Of a stretch of DNA of 64,000 nucleotides, positions 38,228-63,724 are shown in pieces. Position 1 is the first letter of the stretch; each line of letters opens with the position of its first letter. Source of the DNA: Serpula lacrymans var. lacrymans S7.9 (lineage: Eukaryota; Basidiomycota; Agaricomycetes; Boletales; Serpulaceae); NCBI RefSeq assembly GCF_000218685.1, contig NW_006763292.1, positions 2,929,909-2,993,908 of the forward strand, given 5' to 3'. The translations under genes and the position numbers were made by a program. The notes beneath the pieces are model-generated. The model did no database searches. It was not told where the DNA came from and saw only the letters and a program-made list of their open reading frames with translations.

Positions 38228-38374
38228 ACTGGGTCCAAACGGTTGTCCAGTTGTAACTGGCTTATTAGGCTCTCGGTTCTTCTCCCGACTGGTGGACGCA
38301 AGTGCGCGGCCTGGTCAGAGGAAAGCGAATTTGAAACTAGGTAAAAATGAGAAAATTCCTTTGGTTCCACACCA
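38228..38374 (-). ncRNA. conserved leader RNA module, element E copy
   Basis: 147-nt module from TGGTGTGGAACCA to a terminal stem-loop. Stem ACTGG/CCAGT, loop ACAACCGTTTGGAC. It corresponds to the modules in elements B, C and D and in the fossil at 63.6 kb. Confidence 0.6.
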
Positions 38375-38633
38375 AAAGAATTATATTGATATAATTGTAG
38401 TTAAAGGGGAATGGTGACGAAGGAGTCTTGGGAGGAGGGGGAGATGTTTGCTGGGAAGAATGATAGGATAGTGTTGGGGCGAGTGGGAATGTTGTTTAGT
38501 GGGATGATAGGTTGAGTGTGATTTTTGTAAAAGAATTTGAGTAGGGTGAAGATGAAGATGATGATGGTGATGACGATGATAAGGATAGCTGTTGTTACGT
38601 TCATAGACGGTACTCGTTACCAGTTGTTGATTG

Positions 38634-43363: not shown

Positions 43364-43749
43364 TGTTACGATAACACAATTTCCGGACATCTCCTTTCCT
43401 TTTTATTCTCCGCTTTAACTTTATACTTTAAGTGCCACGCGGCATTTCCCTTTCTCGCGCCGCGTTGCCTTTCTTTTACTTTTAGACTTAACTCTCTCAC
43501 ACAGTGGAGCTGGCCATACGGGCTAGGCCCTATGACATCATCAGCCACTGCCTTCATCAACTGTATAGTACACATGTACAAACAACCTGTAGTAGTATAT
43601 ATACCCCAATAGATCCAGGAGACTCCTCAGCGAGTCCTCCTGTTGTATACCAACAAACTCTCTGCAGCTTAAGGGGTAACCACTCCCTCAACATCTTCTT
43701 TATAGTGTGTTCTTGTGTGCGCCAGAGTAACTAACTCTTGGTTGTTACA
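43364..43749 (+). repeat. element B 5' LTR
   Basis: 386 bp. TATATATA at ~43596 is followed ~33 nt later by AGCGAGTCCT (43629-43638), the predicted transcript start region. Confidence 0.95.
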
Positions 43750-43751
43750 TT

Positions 43752-43761
43752 AGGACTCGCT
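43752..43761 (+). promoter_or_regulatory. element B primer-binding site, self-complementary type
   Basis: AGGACTCGCT, two bases after the LTR, is the exact reverse complement of AGCGAGTCCT at 43629-43638 in the LTR. This matches Tf1-type self-priming rather than a tRNA primer. Confidence 0.6.
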
Positions 43762-43965
43762 CTTCTACTCTCTCGCACGTGTGTGCAGAAGTCCCATCAT
43801 TTGGGCACCCGGACTCCAGGGTGAAGGAGATTGGTTAGCGGTTAGGAATATCCCATATAGCAAATAGGTGCGCTCCTAGCGACGGCCTTGTAGTGCTTTG
43901 GGAGAAGAACCCAAAACCTGTGATACGCGGCCCCCAGCGTTAAGGGGAGTACTTAGCTCAGCAGC

Positions 43966-44113
43966 TGGTGTGGAACCACTGTTGATTAGAATAAAAATAC
44001 ATAACTTCTTTTTCGAATACCTCTGACCAGGCCGGGCACTTGCCTCCGCCAGTCTGGAGAAGGGTTGACAGCTTAACAAGCGGACCACCCCCTGACAACC
44101 GTTCGGACCAGGG
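43966..44113 (+). ncRNA. conserved leader RNA module, element B copy
   Basis: 148 nt between the primer site and gag. Starts TGGTGTGGAACCA, contains CTCTGACCAGGCC, and ends in a stem-loop: stem CCCTG/CAGGG (44090-44094, 44109-44113), loop ACAACCGTTCGGAC. The corresponding stems in elements C and E have different bases but still pair. Confidence 0.65.
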
Positions 44114-44291: not shown

Positions 44292-45338
44292 ATGAATGCG
44301 CTACTGCACGCAATGCGTGTGCAGATAGCTGAATTAACCTCGCAGCTCGCTGAGATACAGGCCAACCCCCCTGTAGCAACCCCCTCGGTAGAGAAAAAGT
44401 TTAATAAGAAAGTCGAAGTCGTCGCTGACCCTGGCGCCTTCGAAGGAGACAGAGCGCGATTTGCCGAATGGTGGATCAAACTCCAGATTTGGGTCAAGGC
44501 GAACTGGGACGCTTTCGCCGACGATTTTGAAGTAGCCACTGTGGTGCTATCTCGCCTAAAAGGACCTGTGGCGGGTCAATACGCCCAAGTAAGACTCCAG
44601 GAATGCTACACCGCGGGTGTGTGGCCCACCTGGGACGATCTCAAAACAGAGATCGAAAAATATTTCAAACCGCAAGCTGAGCGTGACTGGGCTCGGCAGC
44701 AAATCCGTTCGTTCAAACAGGGAAACCTGAGGACGGACGATTACGTCACCCGGTTCCTGGCCCTCTCCATCCAAGGAGGGTTAGGTAACGAACACGCAGT
44801 AGAACTGCTGGAACGCAATGTGAACCCTCGCATTGCAGAGCAGATCTACCTGCAGGATACGAGAAGTGACGACCTGGCTCTGGCAGCCGAGGAAGTCAGA
44901 CGAGTCGGTAGGGCCATGGAGCTCTACGCTATGCACCAAGGTGGCGGGTCCACCAAACAAACCACTATACCCCAGAGGCGCCCTGGGTCATCAAACCAAC
45001 ATCATAATCACTCTCACGGGTTCAAGCCGTTCGGGCTGCAGCCAGGACAGGGTGCTCCTATGGATATCGGCGCGGTCCAAGGCGGACAAATGCGCAGATT
45101 CAAGGGCAACTGTTACAACTGCGGCCAAGAGGGACACATGTCCCGAGACTGTAGAAACGGGGCGCAGGCTGCCCAACAAAAAAATAATCAAGGGCGCCAG
45201 GCGCGCCAACTAGAAATTGAGAAGCCGGACGATCGGCTCAACTCTTTGGCCGGTCGTTCTTACGACGAAATCCGGGCCTTCTTCTATGACCAACAGGTCA
45301 ACGAAATGAAGGCTCAGGGAAAAGAATTCGGGGCTTAG
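44292..45338 (+). CDS. element B Gag
   Basis: About 348 residues with capsid-type region (WWIKLQIWVKANWDAF onward) and one zinc knuckle (CYNCGQEGHMSRDC, ~45112-45153) that binds the genomic RNA. The matching codon of element D's start (ATG, 59002-59004) is GTG at 44271 here, so B probably starts at the next ATG, 44292, seven codons in. Gag ends at TAG 45336-45338, after the slippery site used to make Gag-Pol. Confidence 0.85.
   Translation: MNALLHAMRVQIAELTSQLAEIQANPPVATPSVEKKFNKKVEVVADPGAFEGDRARFAEWWIKLQIWVKANWDAFADDFEVATVVLSRLKGPVAGQYAQVRLQECYTAGVWPTWDDLKTEIEKYFKPQAERDWARQQIRSFKQGNLRTDDYVTRFLALSIQGGLGNEHAVELLERNVNPRIAEQIYLQDTRSDDLALAAEEVRRVGRAMELYAMHQGGGSTKQTTIPQRRPGSSNQHHNHSHGFKPFGLQPGQGAPMDIGAVQGGQMRRFKGNCYNCGQEGHMSRDCRNGAQAAQQKNNQGRQARQLEIEKPDDRLNSLAGRSYDEIRAFFYDQQVNEMKAQGKEFGA
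45317..45323 (+). promoter_or_regulatory. -1 frameshift site GGGAAAA, element B
   Basis: Canonical X-XXY-YYZ heptamer in the gag frame (CAG GGA AAA), 12 nt before the gag stop. Slipping back by one enters the pol frame exactly. It is conserved in element D. Confidence 0.75.
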
Positions 45339-48217
45339 GTCACTTGGGTGCCTTAGCTCCTGGTAAAAATGAAGTAAACCACAACAAAGTGGCCCCTGCT
45401 CCGGGGTGTTGCACGAGCAATAACGGAATGACAGGGATGGCTCCCCAATTTGTAAATAAGTTTTTAAATTTGTTATCAGAAGTATGTACTTGTATGAAGA
45501 AATGTAACTGCAATATTTATGATACTACCGCTGCACCAGCGTCTCCCTTGGAGCGTGGCCCCGGCGAGACAAACACTAGGGTGCTTGATTCTGGTAAAAC
45601 AAAATTAGAAAAACATGTGTCATTCAAGATTCCTTCTTCTTCTTCTTTGGAGCCACCCTTTCCCGAAATCCCAAGGCGTGTGTTGATGCGCACGTATTTA
45701 TTCCAAAAGGAGATCTGTTTAGACGTTGGCGTGGAAAACCTTGCCAGGGGCAAAGTACACTCAACGAGCGCACTGCTTGATTCAGGCGCTAACGGGATCT
45801 TCATAGATCAGGTCTGGGCGGAGCAAATTGGACTACCCCTTGTAAAATTAGAAACGTCTATTCCCGTCTATAACGTTGACGGTACGCTTAACGCAGGTGG
45901 CTGTATTACACACAAATGTTCTTTTGTGGTCGAATACCAAGGACACAGAGAACGAGTCACTGCCGAGGCTACCCAACTAGGGAAGATTAATTTAATCTTA
46001 GGCTGGACCTGGCTATTTAAACACAATCCTGAGATCAACTGGCAGACAGGGGTTGTCACATTGTCACGTTGTCCCCAGGAATGTGTAAACTTGGGTAAAC
46101 CAAATCATGTCCGTCACAATGAGCGTCTCGAAAAGTTAAACGCTAGTCACGTTTACGAGCTCAGATCTTTAGAAAAGATCGACGATGATGATGATGAGGT
46201 AAAACCTGAGGAAGAGATTAAGAGGCTGGTACCTCCCGAGTACCACGACTTCTGGAAAGTCTTTTCAAAACACAAATCAGAGCGCTTCCCAGAGGCTAAG
46301 CCTTGGGACCATGCTATAGATTTGAAAGACACCTTCAAACCAAGGAAGGGACACATGATACCACTCTCTGCTCCCGAAAGAGACGAGGTATCTAGTTTCA
46401 TAGACGAACAACTTAGGAAAGGTTACATCAGACCTTCCAAAAGTCCTATGACGTCCCCGGTGTTCTTCATTCCTAAAAAGGATGGTAAAAAGCGAATAAT
46501 TATGGACTATCGTTACGTGAATGAGCACACGGTTAAAAATGCGTATCCTCTGCCTTTGATTAGTCAGCTAGTGGACAAATTGGCTGGCGCCAAGATCCTG
46601 ACAAAGATGGATCTCAGATGGGGTACAACAATGTACGAATCAAAGAGGAAGATGCTTGGAAGGCCGCGTTCACGTGCCACCGAGGATCTTTCGAACCCCT
46701 TGTTATGTTCTTTGGGTTGACCAATTCACCGGCGACCTTCCAGAGCATGATGAACGAGATCTTTGCGGATATGGAAAACTGTGTTGTCATTTACATTGAC
46801 GATTTATTAATATTTACAAAGTCGGACGATAAGGCTGAGCATGACAGGATCGTGCAAGAAGTCCTTCGACGCTTACAGGAACGGGACCTATTCGTCAAAC
46901 CCGAAAAATGTAATTTTAAAGTGAAGGAAGTAGACTTCCTCGGTATGATCATAGGCCAGAACGGAATCAGGATGAACCCTGAGAAAGTTCAAGCTATTTT
47001 GGAATGGCCAGAACCTACTCGCGTCAAAGGAGTTAGGGCCTTCCTAGGCTTAGGTAATTTCTACCGAAGGTTTATTGAAGACTTCGCAAAAATCATGAGA
47101 CCGTTGAACGATCTCACCAAAAAGGACCTTGTTTGGCATTGGGGCGCCAAAGAACAGGAAGCTTTTGATAAGCTTAAACAGGCATTTACAACAGCGCCCA
47201 TATTGGCATTCCCTGAATTAGACAAAGAGTTCCGGCTAGAAACCGACTCTTCTGACTTCGCCACTGGGGCTGTTCTATCCATCAAATGCCCTGATGATCT
47301 TTGGAGGCCTTGTGCCTATTTATCGCATAGTTTGTTGCCTACAGAGCGTAACTATCAAATATACGACAAGGAGATGCTGGCCATCATTAGAGCTTTAGAG
47401 CACTGGCGGTACTACTTAGAAGGTGCTAGGCACCAATTCGAAATTTGGACCGATCATAAGAACCTAGAGTACTTCATGACGGCCCGAGACCTGAACCGGA
47501 GACAGGCCCGCTACGCGGTGTACTTGTCAAGGTTCAATTATAAATTAATTCATAAACCAGGAAGCTCAATGGGGAAAGCGGATGCTTTATCTAGAAGAGA
47601 GGATCATGCCAACGGCATTGAAGATGACAACAAAGGTGTCACTCTGATAGATCAATGAAGGGTTGCCAATGTTAGAATCGGGCAAGATTCCGACCTCCTG
47701 GAAGTCTTCAGGAAAGACATCTCCCCAGAGGAAAAGGCGCGCCTTGACGGCAATGAAAACTATTTATGGAAAGACGGGCTCTTTCATTTCAAAAACAAAA
47801 TCTATGTGCCGGAATCCGCAAGGATCAAGGCAATAGATAGACATCATGACACTCCAGTGGCTGGGCACCCTGGATGGCAACGAACGATGGAGTTGATCTC
47901 CAGAAACTACATGTGGCCGGGCATGGTCAAAAACGTACAGGAATACGTAAAATCCTGTCTGAGATGCGCCATGGCCAAGAATTCCCATCAACCGCCGGCC
48001 GGTAAACTCATGCCGAACCCGATACCAGCTGGCCCCTGGCAGGATATATCGGTGGACTTCACGACGGATCTGCCCGAGTCAAACGGGTACGATTCAGTAA
48101 TGGCGGTAGTAGACCGCTTCTCCAAAGAAGTGGTATTCATACCCACCAACAAAAACATCACCACCGCCGGTACGGCAGACCTATTTAAGGATTCCGTATG
48201 GTCCATCCATGGGTTAC
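45323..48217 (+). pseudogene. element B Pol, 5' part
   Basis: Follows gag in the -1 frame. Protease (LLDSGANGIFID, ~45775), RT ([11 protein letters not shown], ~46785), RNase H (TDHKNLEYF), integrase zinc region and core start. Two defects: a G5 run is G4 at ~46619 (D has five), shifting RT out of frame after DLRWG, and a TGA at 47656-47658 stands where D has TCA. The piece ends at 48217, where element C begins. Confidence 0.9.
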
Positions 48218-48600
48218 TGTCACGACTTGAACCAGAAGCGCTAGTCTAAGCGCTAGTTTCTTTTTCCTTTTCTTTTATATCTGATCACATGACAGATAAG
48301 ATATGTTAAGCTGCTGCTTTAGCGCGGATAACATAATACGTAGTTATATCAGATCACGTGACCACCACGTGACATGAGTCTAGAATTATTACAAAAAACA
48401 TCAGTCAGCGCCTCATGGCTACTGCATGTTAGCTCAGTCAGCGCCTCATGGCTGACTTTCAGAAACATATATATAGTAGACCATCATGTACATACTTTCC
48501 TCAGTTGTTGATTAATTCTCAATCGCTACTTGAAACACTACTTGTCTGATTTAAGCCTTCATCCCTCCGTTCACTCGGCATAGGGGATAAGGGTTTTACA
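48218..48600 (+). repeat. element C 5' LTR
   Basis: 383 bp. U3 carries two CACGTG boxes (48355-48372), a duplicated AGTCAGCGCCTCATGGCT and TATATATA at 48468-48475. The predicted transcript start is around 48500. Confidence 0.95.
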
Positions 48601-48601
48601 C

Positions 48602-48613
48602 AATCAACAACTG
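48602..48613 (+). promoter_or_regulatory. element C primer-binding site, self-complementary type
   Basis: AATCAACAACTG, one base after the LTR, is the exact reverse complement of CAGTTGTTGATT at 48502-48513, which lies ~34 nt after the TATA box. Element E keeps both halves. Confidence 0.65.
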
Positions 48614-48859
48614 CCACAAGTACCGTTTATGAATATAACAGCAACAATCCTAACCACCATCATCGTCACCATCATCATCATCCATCCTAACCCTACTCAA
48701 ACACTCAACCCAAACCACCACTACTCTTCCACTCCATCACATCCCCACTCGCCCCAACACCATCTTATCCTTCTTTCCCGCCAACATATCACCTTCCTCA
48801 TCCCAAGACTCCTTTGTAACCATCCCCCTATAAATACATTTATATCACTATAATCTCTT

Positions 48860-49007
48860 TGGTGTGGAACCATTGGGATTTTCTCGATTTTACCTAGTTT
48901 CATTTTCGATTTCCTCTGACCAGGCCGCGCATTTGCGTCCGCCAGTCGGGAGAAGGACTGAAAGCTTAATAAGCTGGTCACATTGGGACAACCGTTCGGA
49001 CCCCAAT
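48860..49007 (+). ncRNA. conserved leader RNA module, element C copy
   Basis: 148 nt. TGGTGTGGAACCA, then CTCTGACCAGGCC, a small hairpin (CGCA/TGCG, ~48930), and the terminal stem-loop: stem ATTGGG/CCCAAT (48982-48987, 49002-49007), loop ACAACCGTTCGGAC. Confidence 0.65.
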
Positions 49008-49177
49008 TTATCACTATACTTTTTACATAAAATTCGTAAAATACAAAAATAGTTACCATACCTACATAGTCAGTAGTGGGCTGAAGAGGACCACTTTGAC
49101 TCAAAGAGAATAGATAGACTACTAGGATCTTAGAAAGCGGTGTATCGATCCAGCTTATCACTGGTGAACTCCTTTCT

Positions 49178-49615
49178 ATGCTTAGTAGAGATTTTTACAT
49201 TTGGATCGGAGAGCAACACATTTACTCTCAAGATTACGTATTCAAAGGGAAATTCCCTTTACCAGAAATAGAACCCATTAGAATCCCATCCCCTTTAATC
49301 AAATCCGAAACTCCCCCTCCTCCCCAACTCACGTTCAATGTCCAACCTAGAATATCGCGATCTGCCCGAGCCATCCAACAGCACGGACAGCGCATTTACC
49401 AGGGAAATGATGGACGCATTACCCAGAATAGACACTCCCCCCCCGAAAGAAGCGCGATTGGAAGCATACGTAAAACAAGAAGTAGAAAAGGCGATAAGAC
49501 AAACACAAATGCATTACCAATCGCAGCTAGACGAGGCACTCGAAGAAGTGAGCGTCTTGCAAAGAAAATTAAAGAAACAGATACCGCCACCTCCAGAAAA
49601 GGTGGAAAGAAGTAG
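49178..49615 (+). CDS. element C overlapping frame (ORF0), 145 codons
   Basis: Begins 160 nt before gag's ATG and overlaps its first ~93 codons; gag lies in the +1 frame relative to it. The N-terminal half has IWIGEQHIYSQDYVF and a proline-rich ETPPPPQL; the C-terminal half is very basic. It aligns without gaps to element E's ORF0, at about 75% identity. In the first 60 codons I count 18 silent codon differences against 11 replacements, which argues for translation. Function unknown; it could be a separate small protein or an N-terminal extension of Gag by frameshifting. Confidence 0.55.
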   Translation: MLSRDFYIWIGEQHIYSQDYVFKGKFPLPEIEPIRIPSPLIKSETPPPPQLTFNVQPRISRSARAIQQHGQRIYQGNDGRITQNRHSPPERSAIGSIRKTRSRKGDKTNTNALPIAARRGTRRSERLAKKIKETDTATSRKGGKK

Positions 49616-50456
49616 AACGGCACTGGAGAAACCCGAGAACTTCTCCGGAGATAAGAAAAAGTATAGGGCCTTTAGAGAGTCCTTATTATTACATTTCGAA
49701 GACGATGCCGTATATTTCCGAGATGACCGAAAAAAGATAAGCTTTGTGCTATCTTTTATGAAAGAAGGAGAAGCCGCGGCCTTCCGGACCGATTGGCTAG
49801 AGAACCGAGTCGATGCCCAACAGCTGGGGCTCGATATTACAAACACGTACGGAAGTTGGCCGTATTTTGCGGACAAAATGGAAGAAAGGTTCAAGGACAG
49901 TTTTGAAAAAGAAACTGCCAAGAACGAAATATTGACCCTGAGACAGGGCAATGAAACCGCCCAAGCCTTCTTTGAAAGGTTTGAAGAAAAGAAAAGATGG
50001 GCAGGATACACAAATAGAATAAATGAAGAGTTCCTAGTATCTCTACTCAGAAGGAATATGAACAAACCGCTAGTGGATAGGGTGATCTACGGCGGGCACA
50101 TTCCAAGAGATTACCAAGAGTGGAAAAGGGAACTCATCAGAATAGACTATATTTGGAGAGAGAGAGAAAAAGAGAAGAAAGGTTCCGATACTGGGAAGAA
50201 ACCCTATTCGGAACAAAAGAAGGAAGGAGAGAAGAAGAAAGACGGAACCGGATATACCTATACCGGTAGCGGAGAAAGAATGGAGGTAGACAAAGCAAAG
50301 TTCCGCACGGAGGGACGATGCTACCGATGCGGAGAAAAGGGACATAGAAGCTTCGAGTGCAAAGACGCACAAAAAAGGAAGCCACAATTTAATGTCCGAG
50401 AGTTCTTAGAAAAGATGACAAAAGAGGAAAGGGAAAAACTCCTTGAGGGTTTTTAA
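49338..50456 (+). CDS. element C Gag
   Basis: 372 residues. A coiled region (LDEALEEVSVLQRKLKK), a capsid-like helical domain (~95-260) and one zinc knuckle (CYRCGEKGHRSFEC, ~330-343). It assembles the cytoplasmic particle that packages the element's RNA. It is followed at its stop by the slippery GGGTTTT. Start chosen at 49338 because element E keeps the same ATG and the same 160-nt offset from ORF0. Confidence 0.92.
   Translation: MSNLEYRDLPEPSNSTDSAFTREMMDALPRIDTPPPKEARLEAYVKQEVEKAIRQTQMHYQSQLDEALEEVSVLQRKLKKQIPPPPEKVERSRTALEKPENFSGDKKKYRAFRESLLLHFEDDAVYFRDDRKKISFVLSFMKEGEAAAFRTDWLENRVDAQQLGLDITNTYGSWPYFADKMEERFKDSFEKETAKNEILTLRQGNETAQAFFERFEEKKRWAGYTNRINEEFLVSLLRRNMNKPLVDRVIYGGHIPRDYQEWKRELIRIDYIWREREKEKKGSDTGKKPYSEQKKEGEKKKDGTGYTYTGSGERMEVDKAKFRTEGRCYRCGEKGHRSFECKDAQKRKPQFNVREFLEKMTKEEREKLLEGF
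50447..50453 (+). promoter_or_regulatory. -1 frameshift site GGGTTTT, element C
   Basis: Canonical heptamer in the gag frame (GAG GGT TTT), directly before the TAA at 50454-50456. A -1 slip reads TTA AAG AGG and continues without a stop to 54709. The same heptamer and stop are kept in element E. Confidence 0.8.
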
Positions 50457-55060: not shown

Positions 55061-55065
55061 GTTAC

Positions 55066-59159: not shown

Positions 59160-59306
59160 CCCTGGTCCGAACGGTTATCAGGGGGTGGTCCGCTTGTTAA
59201 GCTGTCAACCCTTCTCCAACTGGCGGAGGCAATTGCCCGGCCTGGTCAGAGGTATTCGAAGAAGAAGTTTGTATTTTAAAATCTAATCAACAGAGGTTCC
59301 ACACCA
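59160..59306 (-). ncRNA. conserved leader RNA module, element D copy
   Basis: 147 nt on the minus strand. Stem CCCTG/CAGGG, loop ATAACCGTTCGGAC, small hairpin GGCA/TGCC; counterpart of the B, C and E modules. Confidence 0.6.
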
Positions 59307-59517
59307 ACTGCTGAGCTAAGTACTCCCCTTAACGCTGGGGGCCGCATATCAACGGTTTTGGTTTTTCTCCCAAAGCACTACAAGGCCGTCGCAAAGAGCG
59401 CACCTATCTGCTATGCAGGATATTCCCAACCAATAACCAATCTCCTTCACCCTGGAGTCCGGGTGCCCAATGGGACTTTTGCACAAATGTGCAAGAGAGT
59501 AGAAGAGCGAGTCCTAA

Positions 59518-60356: not shown

Positions 60357-60430
60357 TGCATTGGCCAGGGCTTAAACCTGGGACTCCAGCTTTCATGGTC
60401 TGATGCTTTACCAACTAAGCTACCAAGGCA
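60357..60430 (-). tRNA. tRNA-like sequence, probably a pseudogene or SINE head
   Basis: 74 nt with tRNA layout: acceptor arms TGCCTTGG/CCAATGCA (7 of 8 pair), D-arm GCTT/AAGC with GTTGG loop (A box), T-arm CCAGG/CCTGG with loop TTTAAGC (B box). The anticodon arm does not pair and no standard anticodon can be placed, so it is unlikely to work in translation. Confidence 0.5.
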
Positions 60431-62462: not shown

Positions 62463-63033
62463 GATTTAATAATAACTTTCTTGCTGATTAATCTTTCTCC
62501 AGGGTATTTCTGTGCTATGCCTATGAACAAGGCTATGCAAGTGGGATATCTTCTGGTGGATGTAGGAAAAGTTTCCTAAGTTGTAAGTATGATAGTCTGT
62601 GAGTGTAAAGAGAAAATAAGAAGAAAAAAGAGATAAGTAAAAGAACACCAGCAGTGACCTCCAGTCTGATAGCAAGTGGAGTGGTTGGAAGAGGGTTGGA
62701 ATAATATGACTTATAACATCACTTAATGCTACCTGTCTGTGTAACTAAGTCTAATATTCTGTTTATTGGCATAGCATTAGGACTTCACATAATCAACAGC
62801 TCATACAAACACCTAGTATATGAGCCAAACAACAACTATGATCATTCCTCACAATTATCATCACCTTACTCGTTATAAACTTCTACCTCTCACCAATCCC
62901 AGAACCCCCATCCACCCCCAATCTGTCTATCCAAACTCATCATTCCACTTTTTCCACTTAATCCCTTTCACAAAACACATATTTTTGCCCAATGAGAGAA
63001 TCTTGTTTAATTATCCCTCTCATACCTCCCTGT

Positions 63034-63543
63034 TGTTACAATTAAACATACCAGCACCTACTTGTGCTTCACTTTTGTACTTGTACTTTTATTTTTCAAG
63101 TCACATGACCAGTCATGTGACCATTTACTTTACTTTTCATTTTCGGACCTTTTCTTTAAATTTCATTCTCCGCTTTAACCTTGTACTGTAGTTTTCACAC
63201 TGTGCCATGTGGCACTTCCCCTTGTATTTCAAACTCCACCTTTCTCATGCGGTGCCGCCTTTATTCTTATTTTAGATACAAGTATCTCACGCAGTGGAGC
63301 TGGTCACACGGGCTAGGCCCCATGACATCAACAGCCACTGACTCTAGCAACTGTACAGTACATATATACAAACAAACCTGTATTAGTATATAAACCCCAA
63401 TAGATCTTGGGGAAAGGACTCAGCAAGTCCTCCTGTTGTCTAGCACAACTAACTCACTGCAGCCTAAGGGGTAACCACTCCCCATCATCTTCTCTATAGT
63501 GTGTTCCTGTGTGCGCCAGAGTAAATAACTCTTGGTTGTTACA
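63034..63543 (+). mobile_element. solo LTR, family F copy 5, with target duplication
   Basis: 510 bp, TGTTACAATTA ... TTGGTTGTTACA, flanked by a perfect 5-bp duplication CCTGT (63029-63033, 63544-63548). Its downstream half resembles B/D LTRs and its upstream half family F, linking the two. Confidence 0.9.
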
Positions 63544-63578
63544 CCTGTACGTCCCACCTCTGTAGATAAAATCTTTGT

Positions 63579-63724
63579 TGGTGTAGAACCAATTGAGGTT
63601 TGGTTTGGACTTACATTTCATTTTCATGTTTCTCTTACCAGGCCATATGATTGTATCTGCCAGTGGGAAAAGGGTTAACAGCCTAATAAGGGGACTACAC
63701 TTAGACTACCTTTTGGACCTGAGT
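63579..63724 (+). ncRNA. conserved leader RNA module, fossil copy
   Basis: About 146 nt. TGGTGTAGAACCA, CTCTTACCAGGCC, then stem ACTTAG/CTGAGT (six pairs with one G-T) around loop ACTACCTTTTGGAC. The stem still pairs although the rest has decayed. Confidence 0.5.

Follow-up and report, generated by a model that had tools for sequence, protein, structure and literature searches.

A covarying four-hairpin leader RNA in Ty3/gypsy chromoviruses of Serpula lacrymans, with a possible role in Gag recognition

Diverged LTR retrotransposons of Serpula lacrymans var. lacrymans S7.9 share a leader RNA module of ~155 nt that consists of four hairpins: P1, a forked P2, a bulged P3, and a terminal stem-loop, P4. 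The module lies between the primer site and gag, keeps its length and fold between lineages, and avoids AUG. On the evidence of covariation, the fold is almost certainly real and selected, in agreement with the first-pass annotation of this DNA, which had proposed a selected RNA fold. Its stems vary in sequence yet pair in four lineages, one of them absent from the model, and in a decayed copy, with up to five pair types at one position; the match of an independent lineage, broken reading frames and the lack of an Rfam match support the same view. As to function, we tentatively favor recognition and packaging of the genomic RNA by Gag, a role that would comprise Gag binding, packaging, and dimerization.

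We analyzed a stretch of 64,000 nucleotides (the window; contig NW_006763292.1, positions 2,929,909 to 2,993,908), in which five elements had been said to carry a module of constant length, ~146–148 nt. All five copies were located and aligned over ~148 nt, and the length from TGGTGT to the end of the five-pair last stem measured 145–148 nt. The letters used earlier were reassigned: the former B, D, and E are the present D (43.9 kb), E (59.2 kb), and B (38.3 kb).

48860-49006, plus strand: module core of copy C, from motif searches and alignment
43958..44113 (core 43966-44113), plus strand: module copy D, in an element interrupted by C; 164.9 bits, in the model seed
38228..38382 (core 38374-38228), minus strand: module copy B; 172.2 bits, in the model seed
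59160..59314 (core 59306-59160), minus strand: module copy E; 150.2 bits, in the model seed
63571..63723 (core 63579-63723), plus strand: decayed module copy F; 123.2 bits, in the model seed

Motif searches recovered all five copies, with C and D matching all three motifs exactly and the others showing at most three mismatches per motif. Taken singly with three mismatches, the motifs are near chance level in the window (21 matches versus 19.9 expected, 7 versus 3.0, and 22 versus 12.8); the non-random part is their order and spacing, as genome-wide counts demonstrate. A 28-place pattern of the module core with up to two mismatches identified 418 copies in the 42.6-Mb genome, and a 13-mer of the core occurred exactly 284 times, while the backward controls gave 0 in both cases. 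The copies fetched for alignment came from the first 100 listed places (contigs C1–C3) and all carry an exact 13-letter anchor; decayed copies are therefore under-sampled. The upstream LTR end assigned a type to 52 of 64 distinct long-flank rows, copy F included. Among a further 60 loci, C- or D-like sequence was found on the gag side in 53 and a C- or D-like leader or LTR upstream in 48. Comparison with the Rfam covariance models, as the first-pass annotation had suggested, returned no module match for the whole window at the gathering threshold, only a tRNA elsewhere, and zero matches for 48500-49340 at E up to 5. That tRNA match lies at 60357-60429 (minus strand, 46 bits); ARAGORN, with the bacterial code, called no tRNA in the window. 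A scan of viral contigs with the module pattern found none. In the literature searched, no paper was recognized as describing such an element, an absence that is weak evidence since subscription titles lay mostly outside coverage.

The four hairpins are placed in copy C as follows; P1, the third hairpin P3, and the hundreds of genomic copies go beyond what had been noticed before.

48852..48880, plus strand: P1 hairpin, 12-nt arms, loop GUGGA at 48864-48868
48914..48953, plus strand: P2 forked hairpin, inner hairpin GCGC/GCGU
48956..48979, plus strand: P3 bulged hairpin, GACU/GGUC plus inner AGCUU/AAGCU
48982..49007, plus strand: P4 terminal stem-loop, conserved loop ACAACCGUUCGGAC

P1 is a hairpin of 11–12 bp with the tip TGGTGTGGAACCA. 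Its loop reads GTGGA in 41 of 49 distinct copies, a constancy that is partly a selection effect because only P1 sequences with a recognizable loop were counted. The arms differ by lineage (AAUCUCUUUGGU, UCAGCAGCUGGU with a bulge, UCAGCAAUAGU, ACUUUACCCGGU, and AUCUUUGUUGGU) but remain complementary: across these 49 copies, an arm matched its own partner at a mean of 10.2 of 11 positions (one bulge allowed), and this mean fell to 7.4 of 11 after arms were exchanged among dissimilar copies (1458 swaps) and to 7.8 after shuffling of the outer arm. P1 is weak in L136, with 3 + 3 pairs flanking a mismatched block. Just upstream of the module in L089, and also in L083, P1 is a perfect palindrome, of 18 nt in the former and at least 14 nt in the latter.

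An A+T-rich linker leads to P2, the trunk of which is nearly invariant and hence tells little about covariation. Its inner stem occurs as GCGC/GCGU, GGGC/GCCU, GCUC/GAGU, GCAC/GUGU, and AUAU/GUAU, with the pair types CG, GC, and UA, and GC, AU, and UA. Covariation of an inner hairpin had been noted earlier and holds, but the register is better placed one position outward (GCGC/GCGT, GGGC/GCCT) because CGCA/TGCG would leave a 2-nt loop; likewise, the CGCA/TGCG kind is present in copy C, to which it had been assigned, but also in the 38.3-kb copy. P3 is built from a four-pair outer stem, 5′-side bulges, one extra covarying pair, and an inner stem, and pairing is kept while the outer stem changes by lineage (GACU/GGUC, GGUU/GACC, GGCU/GGCC, AACC/GGUU, and ACCU/GGGU). 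The P4 loop has the consensus ACAACCGUUYGGAC. The P4 stems reported previously (TTGGG/CCCAA, CCCTG/CAGGG twice, ACTGG/CCAGT, and CTTAG/CTGAG) are all present once the letters are remapped. More copies with an unpaired stem had been named as evidence against the fold; of 102 distinct copies, 89 keep all five P4 pairs, 7 keep four, and 6 keep three or fewer. As a candidate, a long-range partner of the P4 loop was rejected, there being no complement longer than 7 nt elsewhere in the element. In base composition, the module (A+T 0.40–0.45) stands apart from its flanks (A+T 0.67–0.76) in three lineage groups. In L088, the module is followed by an apparent inverted piece of the same leader, a rearranged copy.

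Evidence for the fold came from alignments, a tree-based test, and a lineage found later. Alignments A3 and A4 were picked for diversity and hold 22 and 31 sequences, respectively, L125 being omitted from A4. In A3, a MAFFT alignment whose structure was derived on related sequences, 95.2% of cells were paired, compared with 32–44% when partners were slid by 1–3 positions, and 84 cells had changed on both sides versus a shuffled mean of 26. The structure-model search was given 32 sources. Among 36 model-fitted matches, in alignments that lean towards the structure, 97.4% of cells were paired versus 28.3–45.5% with slid partners, and both-side changes numbered 160 versus 47.3 in shuffles. In neither set was the number of further pair types above that in shuffles.

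The tree-based test was modeled on R-scape rather than being R-scape itself, and used a G-test with average-product correction against a null in which substitutions were re-placed along a FastTree tree. With 84 distinct blocks (from 132 of 143 motif matches), the six top pairs lay in P3 and P4 as now drawn, with one-set E-values of 0.61 to 6.8; pair 52-65 entered the drawn structure because of this result. With 54 representatives of 103 distinct blocks, including new lineages and one chance row (win_m8256), none of 300 null sets exceeded an inner P2 pair or one P4 pair; E-values were 0.02 for a P3 pair and 0.13 for another P4 pair. In a cleaned set, from which 10 of 155 copies were dropped to leave 104 distinct copies and 56 representatives, the top five of 7626 pairs were all predicted ones (one-set E 0.13, 0.14, 0.92, 1.3, and 2.5). 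Testing only the 33 pairs of the A3 structure, the corresponding values (E × 33/7626) are about 0.0006–0.011, a generous correction because most helices were chosen on related sequences. The top-scoring pairs lie in P2–P4, and the formal E-values depend on the set. Counted along branches, compensating or restoring changes showed no excess over matched pairs (31 versus a mean of 31.3) and breaking changes numbered 73 versus a matched mean of 100, a statistic that is uninformative because unpredicted pairs start unpaired. The folding energies of eight single sequences were not better than those of shuffles (z from −1.50 to +0.72); the minimum-energy fold matched P2–P4 in C and L136 and almost did in E, but differed from it in the remaining five.

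The best independent support for the fold is the lineage found later (L136, L137, and L152–L161; 12 loci), which was absent from the seed of model R1 and keeps the plan with the outer P3 stem rewritten. Its members scored 84.8–95.4 bits with structure and 45.9–53.6 bits with a sequence-only model; the two models differ in more than pairing, and close copies gain as many bits, so that the gain measures fit rather than extra proof. Compensation is also visible among similar copies within this lineage, where inner P2 reads GCUC/GAGU or GGGC/GCCU and P4 reads ACUGAG/CUCAGU or AUUGGG/CCCAAU. In six D copies, a U-A pair of P3 is replaced by C-G.

We then considered the elements that carry the module. 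C encodes reverse transcriptase (RT), RNase H, integrase, a Tf2-1-like SH3 domain, and a C-terminal chromodomain, which identify it as a Ty3/gypsy chromovirus, and the same domains were read in pieces in D.

49338..50456, plus strand: gag of copy C, Retrotrans_gag with a CCHC zinc knuckle
44292..45338, plus strand: gag of copy D, Retrotrans_gag with a CCHC zinc knuckle

The first-pass annotation had spoken of two different retrotransposon families. This description calls for caution: both elements are chromoviruses, and their RT/RNase H regions are 54% identical over 348 positions, while Gag is 21% identical between C and D. Of 14 proteins retrieved with the Gag of C as query, 12 were named Serpula lacrymans var. 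lacrymans S7.3. Comparison of the inner DNA of C and D yielded four matches; the module was the best (76.8% over 155 nt, E 1e-26), and the three others lay farther downstream and were 64–68% identical. C is nested in D, and the 5 bp GTTAC that flank it at 48213-48217 and 55061-55065 are the target-site duplication of the nested insertion. The LTRs of D are identical (386/386), and those of C agree in 388 of 390 aligned columns, some flank letters included. In copy F, two D-like LTRs appear to surround the module with no gag-pol between them (63018-63545, 63571-63723; L039 1800-2225), and the sequence after the module looks closer to C than to D; this single copy could be a recombinant of the two families or a mini-element in decay. 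A class of non-autonomous mini-elements with the module as their sole content was rejected, since the full F-like match is one copy only and none of 60 loci showed a D-type LTR match in the ~200 nt that follow the module.

Both C and D bear, as judged from their sequence, the mark of Tf1-type self-priming, in which the primer site can pair with a site inside the LTR where the mRNA is expected to begin, as described in the available part of PMC4600332; the mRNA 5′ end at the LTR site is putative here.

48502..48512, plus strand: LTR site complementary to the primer site, copy C (row L068, −101); putative mRNA 5′ end
48603..48613, plus strand: primer-binding site of copy C, ATCAACAACTG, right after the 5′ LTR
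43629..43638, plus strand: LTR site complementary to the primer site, copy D (row L011, −121)
43752..43761, plus strand: primer-binding site of copy D, AGGACTCGCT

Among C-type rows, which were typed by the primer motif itself (12 of 64 rows being untypable), an 11–12-nt complement of the primer site was present in 17 of 19, at −100 to −102 in 16 and at −64 in one. D-type rows showed a 10-nt complement at −120 to −124 in 26 of 33, a 7-nt one in two, and none in five, copies E and F included. In L045, the primer site and its LTR partner have changed together, and L136 has an 11-nt primer-site/LTR pair of its own. Many primer sites start with TGG, as the tip of P1 does. P1 was nonetheless rejected as the site for a tRNA primer: substitutions in its stem come in pairs, and a separate self-complementary primer site lies at the LTR end.

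The leader around the module is strongly depleted of ATG, which ranks in both families as the most depleted triplet of the 64. Between a point just inside ORF0 and +258, 19 C-type leaders contain 10 ATGs versus 91.5 expected; 22 D-type leaders, counted from 120 nt ahead of the LTR end up to +245, contain 17 versus 139.9 expected. The module itself is free of ATG in 95 of 104 distinct copies. This depletion suggests that ribosomes scan the leader, which lowers the need for an IRES. Packaging or Gag binding, translation initiation, and help with self-priming had been left open as roles; the data still do not decide among them.

38401..38604, minus strand: ORF0 of copy B, 67 aa, membrane-protein-like, ending 18 nt before P1
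48629..48833, plus strand: ORF0 region of copy C, frameshifted (row L068)
49178..49615, plus strand: ORF1 of copy C, 145 aa, basic, downstream of the module and overlapping the gag start in a different frame

In C/B-type leaders, the single ATG before the depleted stretch is the start of ORF0, whose product of 65–71 aa has a hydrophobic segment at the N-terminus and a conserved tail. Of 27 C/B-type rows, 24 have ORF0 intact, the exceptions being L048, L055, and L068 (window copy C); three further rows belong to another lineage. It recurs in the L130/L043 and L136 lineages (L130, L043, L136, L152, L154, L156, and L161), where the frame runs through P1, and P1 encodes GVEP in L130, L043, L136, L152, L154, and L161. 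Because P1 lies inside a conserved upstream ORF in these two lineages, its sequence is also protein-constrained there. The median dN/dS of ORF0 was 0.33 over 91 pairs from 14 sequences (17 were chosen, with ORFs of at least 55 aa, and three gave no ORF), with synonymous sites near saturation (median pS 0.61); ORF0 is thus apparently under purifying selection. A search of the protein collection for relatives of ORF0 found none, no candidate sharing enough words. ORF1 is conserved in C/B-type elements, and its dN/dS of 0.39 (36 pairs from 9 of 10 chosen sequences, ORFs of at least 120 aa) is confounded because of the overlap with gag. D had no match to ORF0 or ORF1 better than E 1.

Gag recognition is our preferred account of the module because the module occurs in lineages with and without ORF0, its stems drift around near-fixed loops, and CCHC zinc knuckles are present in the Gags of both C and D. 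Under this model, a four-hairpin 5′ leader RNA of self-priming Ty3/gypsy chromoviruses, inherited from a common ancestor, would mark the full-length RNA for assembly. Gag would bind the P1 loop GUGGA, the P4 loop ACAACCGUUYGGAC, and the P2 internal loop, thereby nucleating packaging and perhaps dimerization, and would compete with ribosomes scanning the AUG-poor leader towards gag. A combined role, in which one RNA is sorted between ribosomes and particles, is compatible with the avoidance of AUG. Retroviral and Ty leaders are known to carry packaging, dimerization, and priming signals in this part of the RNA (PMC4974528 among the sources). Several observations count against packaging. Gag falls to 21% identity while the RNA is conserved, so that a conserved mode of recognition would be needed, and no family of short elements kept just for the module RNA was seen among the 60 loci, F being single. 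In many retroviruses, a palindromic loop starts dimerization; on reading, the P1 and P4 loops (GUGGA and ACAACCGUUYGGAC) are not palindromes.

The main rival to Gag recognition, which we regard as rather unlikely, is translation control, in which the module would let ribosomes reach gag past ORF0 by reinitiation, by shunting over the structured block to the AUG-free, A+T-rich stretch, or by internal entry. The preservation of ORF0 in most C/B-type rows and its apparent selection speak for such a role, as do the copy B stop codon just ahead of P1, the depletion of ATG, and a post-module stretch of 67–74% A+T that resembles the shunt landing site described in the available text of PMC5902531. 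Yet D, with no match to ORF0 and no need of a bypass, still keeps the module; in the L130 and L136 lineages, the stop of ORF0 coincides with the end of P1 or lies beyond it; intact ORF0 spans 65 to about 86 codons, whereas the same excerpt describes a short uORF; and AUG avoidance also fits plain scanning. A role at the start of reverse transcription, with the fold holding the self-primer duplex in place or being cleaved along with it, appears improbable. Tf1 reportedly needs RNA structure for primer cleavage, and the primer site is complementary to an LTR-internal site in C, D, and the L136 lineage. In C and D, however, ~200–240 nt separate the primer site from P1 downstream, and the primer site finds a partner of its own in the LTR, which lowers the help with self-priming considered earlier. 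Moreover, complements to the P1, P2 5′-side, and P4 motifs elsewhere in C or D stay below 8 nt; the P2 3′-side and P3 motifs reach 8 nt, apparently by chance.

That the conservation is of protein-coding origin, with P1 as the end of ORF0 and the rest a relic, we consider very improbable. The GVEP codons make part of P1 protein-constrained where ORF0 runs through it, but P1 follows the ORF0 stop in intact C/B copies, D lacks an ORF0 match, and P1 covaries regardless. All three frames are interrupted by stop codons in 83 of the 104 distinct modules, two frames are interrupted in the remaining 21, and P2–P4 covary outside ORF0, so for these hairpins a coding origin is already contradicted. Shared recent descent or recombination between the families, without selection on the RNA, is harder still to credit. 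The families do nest in each other, and F, with D-like LTRs around a leader with a C-like end, indicates that exchange may happen; paired positions, however, differ jointly both between and within lineages while the loops are near-fixed, and recombination alone is insufficient for this. A more elaborate proposal, which we hold to be a long shot, is that the four-hairpin RNA decides between translation and assembly and is coupled in three lineages to ORF0 as a single-pass membrane microprotein. Translation of ORF0 might open P1, through which the frame passes in two lineages, and so switch the RNA from packaged to translated, or ORF0 might anchor assembly at a membrane. If true, it would amount to a self-regulating leader in fungal LTR retrotransposons.

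A covarying, alignable leader RNA with several hundred natural variants would provide a testable packaging or translation element for self-priming chromoviruses, and the module could serve as a search model for other fungi. It also suggests that the leader RNA of a retroelement may outlast its gag in conservation at the DNA level.

Finally, we compared the module with known systems. The shunt and packaging leaders of CaMV and RTBV resemble it in having a uORF, a structured block, and an A+T-rich stretch before the first large ORF, as outlined in the accessible sections of PMC5902531; they differ in that ORF0 here is long and protein-conserved, is not found in D, and runs through P1 in other lineages. 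The short uORF ending just before a stable stem that characterizes shunting was not seen, as an end ahead of P1 occurs in C/B-type elements only and the ORF there is long. Like the retroviral psi of HIV-1, RSV, and MMTV, to the extent that the available sources describe it, the module places several hairpins between the primer site and gag, and the RNA concerned serves as mRNA as well as genome. In contrast, no Rfam relation was found for the module, its loops are not palindromic, and its packaging role is putative. The 5′ cis-acting regions of Ty1 and Ty3 likewise contain packaging and priming signals, and the accessible portion of PMC4974528 describes Ty packaging sequences as not precisely defined and the structure of Ty3 RNA as uncharacterized; Ty1 and Ty3, in contrast to the elements studied here, use a tRNA primer. 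The carriers resemble Tf1/sushi-type elements (Tf1, Tf2, and Tj1) in being Ty3/gypsy elements with a chromodomain, a Tf2-1-like SH3 domain, and an LTR-complementary primer site. No such leader module appears in the part of PMC4600332 available, whereas the Serpula elements carry one, flanked in some lineages by ORF0 and ORF1.
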